Positions 5,662 to 59,107 of a stretch of 64,000 bases of DNA are shown piece after piece. Position numbers and translations under genes: made by a program. Where the stretch lies: positions 124,001 through 188,000 of the forward strand of contig NZ_FRYK01000003.1 of assembly GCF_900148835.1 (NCBI RefSeq), in the 5' to 3' direction. The DNA comes from Flavobacterium cucumis. Its GTDB lineage: Bacteria; Bacteroidota; Bacteroidia; Flavobacteriales; Flavobacteriaceae. Below the pieces are notes generated by a model. That model had not been told where the DNA came from. It saw only the letters and a program-made list of their open reading frames with translations, and searched no databases. Positions within the stretch are counted from its first letter, which is position 1, and each line of letters starts with the position of its first letter.

Positions 5662-6003
5662 ATGAGTAAAAGAGATGAATTAATTACCAAGTATGCCGCT
5701 GATTTGAAAGAAAAGTGTGGTGTTACTGCCGATATGGATTTTTTGACTAAGGTAGTAATTGGGTGTGGTCCTTCAATTTATAATCCAGATTCTTCAACAG
5801 TATCAGGTTCAGACTCTAAAGAATTGGAAACTGTAAAAAATAATTTTCTTATCAAGAAATTAGGATTAAAAGATAGTCCTGATTTAGATAAAGGAATTGA
5901 GGCTGTCATAGAGCAATATGGAAAATCGAATAAAAATAAGTATAGAGCCGTGGTTTATTATTTATTAGCTAAGCACTTTAAAAAAGAATCGGTATATAAA
6001 TAA
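5662..6003 (+). CDS. DUF2853 family protein
   Basis: A 113-aa soluble, charged protein starting MSKRDELITKYAADLKEK and ending in a helix with the motif KYRAVVYYLLAKHF. This matches the small DUF2853 family found across Bacteroidota and Proteobacteria, whose function is unknown. It has no signal peptide or membrane segment and a lysine-rich surface. The gene is monocistronic: a -7 element lies 29 nt before the ATG and a hairpin terminator follows at 6070-6102. The central stretch NPDSSTVSGSDSKELETVKNN looks like a flexible loop. Confidence 0.8.
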   Translation: MSKRDELITKYAADLKEKCGVTADMDFLTKVVIGCGPSIYNPDSSTVSGSDSKELETVKNNFLIKKLGLKDSPDLDKGIEAVIEQYGKSNKNKYRAVVYYLLAKHFKKESVYK

Positions 6004-6069
6004 AAAAATGTTTATTGCTCTTCATTAGAAGACTTTTATGAAATTTTCTATTGAAGAGTATTCCTATGT

Positions 6070-6102
6070 AAAGATGTAATGTTTTAATTGCATCTTTTTT
6101 TT
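6070..6102 (+). terminator. Intrinsic terminator of the DUF2853 gene
   Basis: AAAGATG (6070-6076) pairs with CATCTTT (6091-6097), closed by an AT-rich loop and followed by a long T-run. Confidence 0.75.
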
Positions 6103-6134
6103 ATGACTTAACTTAAAAAGAAAAGGGGGTAAAA

Positions 6135-6200
6135 GCAAAAAAGTCGAGGTGGAGCCCCCGACTTTTTAAATGAACGTGTAACCACATTTCTGTGTCGTTC
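6135..6200 (-). ncRNA. Candidate small RNA with two hairpins
   Basis: On the minus strand a promoter match (-33 TTG, + strand 6232-6234; 19-bp spacer; -7 TACATTTG, 6205-6212) predicts a start near 6198-6200. The transcript would begin with GAACG (6200-6196), which pairs with CGTTC (6176-6172). Inside is a CACA/TGTG stem closed by a GAAA tetraloop (6187-6190). A strong terminator follows: a stem of AAAAAGTCG with CGACTTTTT (6137-6167) and a T-run. Total length is about 65 nt. There is no reading frame. It does not match any RNA family I can name with certainty; the Flavo-1 motif is one to test. It could instead be a structured element of the opposite strand. Confidence 0.55.
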
Positions 6201-6204
6201 GGTG

Positions 6205-6234
6205 CAAATGTAAGTCCATTTCTGCAATAAACAA
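6205..6234 (-). promoter_or_regulatory. Promoter of the candidate small RNA
   Basis: On the minus strand, TTG at 6234-6232 and TACATTTG at 6212-6205 are separated by 19 bp, the same spacing as the SRP RNA and both receptor promoters in this window. Confidence 0.6.
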
Positions 6235-6296
6235 GTTTTTTTTTAAATTAATTTAAAAAGTTAGGATTTAACGTTCGTTAAAAAGTTTTTTCTTCC

Positions 6297-6304
6297 TATT
6301 TTTG
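6297..6304 (+). promoter_or_regulatory. Promoter -7 element of the oxoamine synthase gene
   Basis: TATTTTTG matches TAnnTTTG 28 nt before the ATG at 6332. Confidence 0.5.
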
Positions 6305-6331
6305 CTGCGTTTTTAACACCAATTATATATC

Positions 6332-7591
6332 ATGGTAAAAGATTTATTCGAAAGAATTCAAAACAATAAAGGTCCGTTAGGAAAATGGGCTTCACAAGCA
6401 GAAGGATATTATGTATTTCCAAAATTAGAAGGAGAATTAGGCCCAAGAATGATGTTTCATGGGAAAGAAATTTTAAATTGGAGTATTAATGATTATCTAG
6501 GATTAGCAAATCATCCAGAGGTTAGAAAAGCTGATGAAGAAGCAGCTAAGCAATTTGGAGCGGCCTATCCAATGGGGGCTCGTATGATGAGTGGTCATAC
6601 GAATTATCACGAACAATTAGAGAATGAATTAGCTGCTTTTGTTAATAAAGAGTCGGCTTATTTATTGAATTTTGGGTATCAAGGTATCATGTCTTGTATT
6701 GATGCATTAGTTACGAAAAATGATATTATTGTTTATGATGTAGATGCTCATGCTTGTATCATTGATGGAGTACGTTTGCATATGGGTAAACGATTTACTT
6801 ACAAGCACAATGATTTAGAGAGTATGGAGAAAAACCTACAACGTGCAACTAAAATGGCTGAAGAGACTGGAGGTGGTATTTTATTTATTACTGAAGGCGT
6901 TTTTGGAATGCGAGGGCAACAAGGTAAATTGAAAGAAATTGTAGCTTTAAAAGAAAAATACAATTTCCGTTTACTTGTAGACGATGCACATGGTTTTGGG
7001 ACACTTGGAAAAACTGGAGCAGGAGCAGGAGAAGAACAAGGATGTCAAGACGGAATAGATGTGTATTTTTCTACATTTGCTAAGTCAATGGCAAGTATTG
7101 GTGCTTTTCTAGCAGCAGATAAAGATGTGATTGATTATTTGAAATATAATTTACGTTCTCAAATGTTTGCAAAGGCATTGCCAATGATTCAAACTATTGG
7201 AGCTTTAAAGCGTCTTCAACTGTTGCGCGATAATCCAGGTTTAAAAGATAAATTATGGGAAAATGTTAATGCATTACAAAATGGATTAAAAGAGCGAGGC
7301 TTTAACATTGGAGATACTAATACTTGTGTAACTCCCGTATATTTAGAAGGTTCTATTCCAGAAGCTATGGTTATGGTGAATGATTTACGTGAAAATTATG
7401 GAATTTTCCTTTCTATTGTAGTGTATCCTGTAATTCCAAAGGGAATTATCTTATTGAGAATGATTCCTACTGCATCTCACACCATTGCTGATATCAATGA
7501 AACGTTATCCGCATTTGAAGCTATTCGTGAGAAATTAATTAACGGAACTTACAAGAAAATTGCAGAAGCTAACGTGCAAAATGTAGAGTAG
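6332..7591 (+). CDS. Alpha-oxoamine synthase (serine palmitoyltransferase / KBL / BioF family)
   Basis: A 419-aa PLP enzyme. It has the N-terminal NWSINDYLGLANHPEV, the aromatic/His region around DVDAHACIIDGVRLH, LLVDDAHGFGTLGKTGAG (Asp that holds the PLP pyridine nitrogen) and the Schiff-base lysine in YFSTFAKSMASIGAF. Enzymes of this family condense an acyl thioester with an amino acid, losing CO2. In Bacteroidota this form with the start KDLFERIQNNKGPLGKWASQAEGYYVFP is usually a serine palmitoyltransferase or the related cysteate acyltransferase of sulfonolipid synthesis; it is often mis-named glycine C-acetyltransferase. Which amino acid is used cannot be decided by eye. Monocistronic, with its own promoter and terminator. 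Confidence 0.85.
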   Translation: MVKDLFERIQNNKGPLGKWASQAEGYYVFPKLEGELGPRMMFHGKEILNWSINDYLGLANHPEVRKADEEAAKQFGAAYPMGARMMSGHTNYHEQLENELAAFVNKESAYLLNFGYQGIMSCIDALVTKNDIIVYDVDAHACIIDGVRLHMGKRFTYKHNDLESMEKNLQRATKMAEETGGGILFITEGVFGMRGQQGKLKEIVALKEKYNFRLLVDDAHGFGTLGKTGAGAGEEQGCQDGIDVYFSTFAKSMASIGAFLAADKDVIDYLKYNLRSQMFAKALPMIQTIGALKRLQLLRDNPGLKDKLWENVNALQNGLKERGFNIGDTNTCVTPVYLEGSIPEAMVMVNDLRENYGIFLSIVVYPVIPKGIILLRMIPTASHTIADINETLSAFEAIREKLINGTYKKIAEANVQNVE

Positions 7592-58956: not shown

Positions 58957-58986
58957 TTGCAGAAATATAAAAAGGTTGTATATTTG
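58957..58986 (+). promoter_or_regulatory. Promoter of the SRP RNA gene
   Basis: TTG (58957-58959), a 19-bp spacer and TATATTTG (58979-58986). The RNA starts a few nucleotides later. Confidence 0.75.
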
Positions 58987-58987
58987 C

Positions 58988-59088
58988 ACCGGCAAGTCCT
59001 ACACGACCAGCTCCTGCAGACTCCTCCAGGGTGGGAACACAGCAAAGGTATGTGGTTGTAGCGGTGCGATGTAGGTCGCTTGCCATTT
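58988..59088 (+). ncRNA. ffs: Signal recognition particle RNA, small bacterial type (4.5S-like)
   Basis: The ends GGCAAG (58991-58996) and CTTGCC (59079-59084) pair, followed by a long stem (TCCTACACGACC with GGTTGTAGCGGTGCGATGTAGG). The tip carries the SRP54-binding domain IV with the symmetric loop pattern CAGGGTGGGAACACAGCAAAGGTA, in which a GGAA tetraloop is visible. Size is about 100 nt. The promoter has a perfect TTG-19-TATATTTG arrangement. It binds Ffh and targets membrane proteins to the translocon. The exact 5' and 3' ends are estimated. Confidence 0.92.
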
Positions 59089-59107
59089 TTTGTTTCTTAT
59101 GAATTGT

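Follow-up and report, generated by a model that had tools for sequence, protein, structure and literature searches.

The gap between two plus-strand genes of Flavobacterium cucumis almost certainly contains a real RNA gene, which lies on the minus strand and specifies a structured RNA of 64–70 nucleotides. This RNA is very probably regulatory and undescribed, a judgement for which the Rfp1–89 RNAs of F. psychrophilum were compared by description alone. The window analysed here is a 64,000-nucleotide stretch of the F. cucumis genome, and the features of the locus, in window coordinates, are as follows.

5662–6003, plus strand: DUF2853 gene, a neighbour convergent to the small RNA gene.
6131–6142, minus strand: two T tracts after the hairpin stem, 6142–6137 and 6134–6131, the first overlapping the 3′ arm of the stem (sequence, relatives).
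6131–6200, minus strand: small RNA, 64–70 nt (covariance models, covariation, fold).
6138–6167, minus strand: terminator hairpin of 12 bp, 6167–6156 paired with 6149–6138, loop GCUCCA at 6155–6150 (terminator scan, covariation, fixed loop).
6172–6200, minus strand: 5′ hairpin, with helix 1 at 6200–6196/6176–6172, helix 2 at 6194–6191/6186–6183, a GAAA tetraloop at 6190–6187 and a 3′ bulge GUUACA at 6182–6177 (covariation, fixed GUUAC).
6205–6234, minus strand: sigma-A-type promoter, with TTG at 6234–6232, a 19-bp spacer and TACATTTG at 6212–6205 (sequence, position of TAnnTTTG in relatives, layout of the SRP RNA promoter).
6332–7591, plus strand: alpha-oxoamine synthase gene (BioF/Kbl/serine palmitoyltransferase type), a neighbour divergent from the small RNA gene.

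The intergenic gap runs from 6004 to 6331 (328 bp), and the genes on either side have signals of their own: a TATTTTTG box at 6297 for the oxoamine synthase gene, and a hairpin followed by a T run at about 6070–6105, 3′ of the DUF2853 gene. The best NCBIfam match of the synthase was a serine palmitoyltransferase, with a score of 298 below the cut-off of 640. The small RNA had been proposed to be non-coding, and this held: no open reading frame of at least 60 amino acids spans the locus, and 55 of 100 distinct loci have a member without any ATG.

The promoter box in F. psychrophilum is reported to lie at −12 to −5 (PMC9723704), and placing the box of the small RNA in the same way predicts a transcriptional start at G6200, the first base of helix 1. 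The original prediction had credited this promoter with the architecture of the SRP RNA promoter. TTG, the 19-bp spacer and TAnnTTTG are all present, and the layout is that of the promoter of the SRP RNA in the window (58983, plus strand; TTG-N19-TATATTTG-CACCG), but the TTG element was not kept in the family. TTG at −33 with a spacing of 18 or 19 was found in just 26 of 99 loci and is not a family feature. TAnnTTTG, on the other hand, occupied the same upstream position in 99 of 100 distinct loci, the sole exception having TACATTTA; this count leaves aside two loci (L163 and L138) that lie too close to an end. Because TAnnTTTG by itself is common (136 occurrences on both strands of the window), the promoter evidence rests on its conserved position. 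A sigma-70 promoter scan did not list the small RNA promoter, an omission to be expected from a scan with an E. coli-type consensus. The small SRP RNA itself (RF04183) occupies 58983–59089 on the plus strand, with a promoter and initial bases (TATATTTG CACCG) very similar to those of the new RNA.

Read along the minus strand, the RNA consists of GAACG, A, CACA, GAAA, UGUG, GUUACA and CGUUC, a 4-nt linker, the 12-bp hairpin and U6-GC-U4. The predicted GAACG/CGTTC stem around CACA-GAAA-TGTG is thus present at 6200–6172, with CACA-GAAA-TGTG at 6194–6183, and the predicted intrinsic terminator was recovered as a 12-bp hairpin with T tracts that was listed by the terminator scan (2 sites in 1.5 kb, against 0.5 expected) and is conserved in relatives. 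Folding of the 66-nt RNA gave a z score of −4.35 relative to dinucleotide shuffles, none of 200 shuffles being as good, and single-sequence folds of four divergent members matched the model fold (z −4.1 to −5.6). In the predicted fold the bases of the GCUCCA loop are unpaired with a probability of 0.99–1.00. The second T tract is kept in relatives, and for this reason the 3′ end of the RNA may be near 6131 rather than 6135.

Conservation in relatives, the next element of the prediction, was borne out within the genus. A BLASTN search of 150 Flavobacterium genomes with a 116-base query returned 13 clear homologues (E ≤ 3.9e-7, own genome included). A MAFFT alignment (A1) misplaced helix 1 in those members missing a particular A; the first covariance model (R1) was therefore limited to the nine sequences bearing that A, the window included, and the remaining members were fitted to it. 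A second model (R2) was built from 70 matches, and both models were run on 398 Flavobacterium genomes. R2 gave 71 matches in 70 of the 398 sampled genomes, own genome included, all with E ≤ 3.6e-14, the next match standing at 5.4e-6. The RNA is single-copy in 69 of these 70 genomes; the other (G068) has two matches, both near contig ends. Strong matches were confined to the own genome among 249 genomes from the family, and to four Flavobacterium genomes, own included, among 196 from the order. Matches beyond the genus were weak (about 23–36 bits), and the ten displayed were terminator hairpins sharing little else; these searches score the best candidates per genome under strict filters, so that divergent members may escape them. 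Collections of plasmids and phages gave no match to the small RNA.

A pattern that recovers 69 of the 70 model-found members was scanned against 84,980 species, each represented by one genome, and returned 105 stretches. Ten of these (L120, L137, L139, L140, L173, L178, L181, L185, L191 and L217) were rejected as chance stretches, none matching R2. The remaining 95 come from Flavobacterium, from bins labelled Flavobacteriaceae, Flavobacteriia, Flavobacteriales or Bacteroidetes, or from two oddly labelled bins (L128 and L145, with the metagenome labels Bifidobacterium and Nitrotoga), which were retained. Carriers include F. aquatile, F. saliperosum, F. terrae, F. enshiense, F. gelidilacus, F. 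limnosediminis, F. cauense, F. suncheonense, F. macrobrachii and F. dankookense; F. psychrophilum, F. columnare and F. johnsoniae are absent among the pattern-scan stretches. R2 found no copy beside the oxoamine synthase gene (30 loci) or lpxD (25 loci, 22 RNA-negative genomes) in a set of home sites drawn mostly from RNA-negative genomes, the best score being 12.9 bits (E 0.51). RNA-negative species are interspersed with positive ones in a single-gene tree, which is too weak for dating the gain or loss of the RNA. Three contigs of F. paronense CECT 8460 (L146, L169 and L201) carry identical copies of the RNA together with its surroundings, either as assembly duplicates or as a real repeat.

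Merging of identical copies left 102 distinct loci, of which 100 (67 distinct rows) were placed in alignment A4; L163 and L214 were omitted, though both match R2. The absence of compensatory changes had been set beforehand as one of the findings that would speak against the RNA, and such changes were found in all three helices. Substitutions in both partners were seen for 13 of the 19 base pairs: four of five in helix 1, all four in helix 2 and 5 of the 10 counted in the terminator stem. Of 1236 cells, 95.9% pair. The covariation score was 0.498, compared with 0.178 (sd 0.010) in shuffles, none of 500 being as high, and fell to at most 0.098 when the structure was slid; all five covariation measures lay above all 500 shuffles. 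A4 was fitted to the structure. When 32 members were aligned by MAFFT without structural guidance, RNAalifold recovered helix 2 and the terminator, and 10 of the 15 pairs it predicted covary; it did not predict helix 1, which differs in length by one pair between members. In relatives the terminator stem extends with covariation to pair 12, which is paired in 79 of 84 against a mean of 56.5 and a maximum of 65 in shuffles. Pair 13, at 64, does no better than the highest of its shuffles, also 64, and 46 of 84 have a U-U mismatch at pair 9. The three helices comprise 10, 11 and 23 haplotypes, and the related sequences among them are not independent.

The RNA is encoded on the minus strand. In addition to the promoter position in 99 of 100 loci, G-U pairs, which would not pair on the opposite strand, make up 56 of the 906 paired cells. 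The T tract is invariant on the minus-strand 3′ side, whereas the A tract on the 5′ side is interrupted in many relatives.

Two unpaired elements are fixed. The GCUCCA terminator loop and the GUUAC bulge are unchanged in 70 of 70 members amid varying helices. These 70 members were found by the covariance models, not by the pattern, and the models were built from members sharing both elements, so that deviating members may be missed. Most members have GAAA or GCAA in the small apical loop, and a few have five bases there. The best match outside this set, at another place in the F. gelidilacus genome (35 bits), has GCUACA and lacks GUUAC. This site (L320:1440–1640, minus strand) may encode a second RNA of the same build, with a TATATTTG promoter, a GAAGC/GCTTC stem and the terminator loop GCTACA. 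Its flanking genes presumably resemble those of HigA-type antitoxins.

The genes around the RNA differ between species. They were tabulated as gene families seen at least twice, plus DUF2853. Among 40 loci with a GAACG/CACA-type RNA, the nearest upstream gene family was a divergent oxoamine synthase in 31, and the synthase lay behind a small open reading frame in 5 more; rdgB follows the RNA on the same strand in 22 of these 40, typically about 42 nt downstream. Among the other 62 loci the upstream gene was lpxD in 23 and prfB in 15, and a convergent dienelactone hydrolase gene lay downstream in 29. Over all 102 loci the nearest downstream gene was on the opposite strand in 64 and on the same strand in 32, and none was found in 6. 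That the RNA serves as the leader of a single gene is unlikely, because different genes lie downstream, usually in the opposite orientation, and the expectation that it is not the leader of either neighbour was upheld. More broadly, the locus might act in cis, as an rdgB leader or attenuator or as a bidirectional terminator whose RNA is itself functionless. The position of rdgB (22 of 102 loci overall) would agree with this, as would the A and T runs on both sides of the hairpin in the window, which could terminate transcription both ways. We regard this explanation as highly improbable: the gene orientations above argue against it, a mere terminator needs no conserved promoter, 5′ hairpin, bulge and loop, and the interruptions of the 5′ A tract indicate that termination in the reverse direction is not kept.

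No family of Rfam 15 matched the small RNA at the gathering score, in a search of the whole window and 12 loci, and below threshold the locus gave only E values of 1.3 or higher. Flavo-1 (RF01705) had been singled out for this comparison. It resembles the new RNA in being a structured RNA motif of Flavobacteriaceae that some genomes carry upstream of the oxoamine synthase gene, but it is described as occurring indifferently sense or antisense of transcripts (PMC9723704), whereas the new RNA has its own promoter. Identity with Flavo-1 was rejected, since the Rfam model does not match at the gathering score and the same searches detect Flavo-1 elsewhere in two of the loci (L099 and L117). A scan of 20 RNA-negative loci placed Flavo-1 upstream of the oxoamine synthase gene in 8 (L238, L240, L245, L246, L248, L251, L254 and L256); in this intergenic region RNA-positive species carry the new RNA where those RNA-negative loci carry Flavo-1.

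Descriptions available from the F. psychrophilum transcriptome (PMC9723704) and from a 2010 motif survey (PMC2864571) include none that matches the new RNA, the Rfp1–89 series being compared by description and not by sequence. The RNA could be a divergent member of that series, for instance of Rfp18, and hence already described. Rfp11, 13, 15 and 18 are reported to be structured and conserved outside F. psychrophilum (PMC9723704), and Rfp18 is, like the new RNA, a structured Flavobacterium small RNA conserved in the genus. By its description, however, Rfp18 occurs in F. psychrophilum and F. columnare, and its reported pairing site is a third stem-loop (PMC9723704), whereas the new RNA has two hairpins. 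Neither species has a record in the 105 pattern stretches, and by these descriptions the series is an unlikely home for the RNA.

The transcript is probably a trans-acting small RNA, expressed from its own gene. The housekeeping sigma factor would start transcription of a stand-alone gene at about 6200 on the minus strand, an intrinsic terminator would end the transcript 64–70 nt after the start, and the RNA would then act in trans. The GCUCCA terminator loop would serve as the seed, pairing with UGGAGC-like sites in target mRNAs, while the 5′ hairpin, which carries a GNRA-like loop and the fixed GUUAC bulge, might shield the 5′ end, bind a protein or touch a second site. We lean towards this loop-seed mechanism as the leading explanation, because the promoter is of the housekeeping type and the loop is fixed while its stem varies. 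Two precedents bear on the putative seed. RepG of Helicobacter pylori (PMC8295292) is also a small intergenic RNA whose terminator loop is the conserved part, and there the loop is also the pairing site; in RepG, likened here by its description, the loop is C/U-rich and has a known G-repeat target, whereas the new loop is GCUCCA. LhrC of Listeria (PMC4132741) shares a C-rich motif in the terminator loop, which in LhrC takes part in target pairing, but LhrC is described as multicopy, with three redundant UCCC-type sites, and as blocking a Shine-Dalgarno site, while the new RNA has one copy in each of 69 of the 70 strongly matching genomes and belongs to a genus in which such sites are seldom used. 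A seed of 6 nt is short, which counts against the loop-seed mechanism.

A possible but less likely explanation is that the RNA binds protein, as a sponge or as part of a small RNP: the GUUAC-bulge hairpin, and perhaps the GCUCCA loop, would be recognised by a protein that is titrated or guided, and no mRNA would be paired. The asymmetric GUUAC bulge and the GNRA-like loop, present in 70 of 70 model-found members amid changing helices, suit such a role, but the presence of two distinct fixed elements, of which one lies in the terminator loop, fits pairing at least equally well. More doubtful is a new functional class of housekeeping RNA, in which the two invariant unpaired elements, GUUAC and GCUCCA, would be positioned by the freely changing helices and would dock on one conserved partner (the ribosome, another stable RNA or a global RNA-binding protein) instead of many mRNAs.

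Under the loop-seed mechanism, targets would be expected to carry UGGAGC. In Flavobacteriales, rpsU is the best-known exception to the rarity of Shine-Dalgarno sites. As a target it was not supported, TGGAGC being found near the start in 0 of 30 genomes, 18 of them RNA-positive. The leaders of rpsU have GGAG in 24 of the 30 genomes and GGGGG instead in 6, one of these RNA-positive. The strong Shine-Dalgarno sequence of rpsU (L325–L354) reads AGGAGGTG in the 24 and AGGGGGTG in the 6, a difference that may bear on autoregulation of bS21.

Flavobacteriales mRNAs are reported to use Shine-Dalgarno sites seldom (PMC9976891), and because such sites are rare the usual logic of a C-rich loop, the blocking of a Shine-Dalgarno site, would seldom be applicable in Flavobacterium. 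Few small RNAs have been studied in this genus. The covariance model can be used for annotating Flavobacterium genomes, in which the RNA has a patchy range (70 of 398 sampled species). With its small size, single copy, patchy range and two short invariant elements, this RNA makes the role of a C-rich loop without Shine-Dalgarno targets directly testable.
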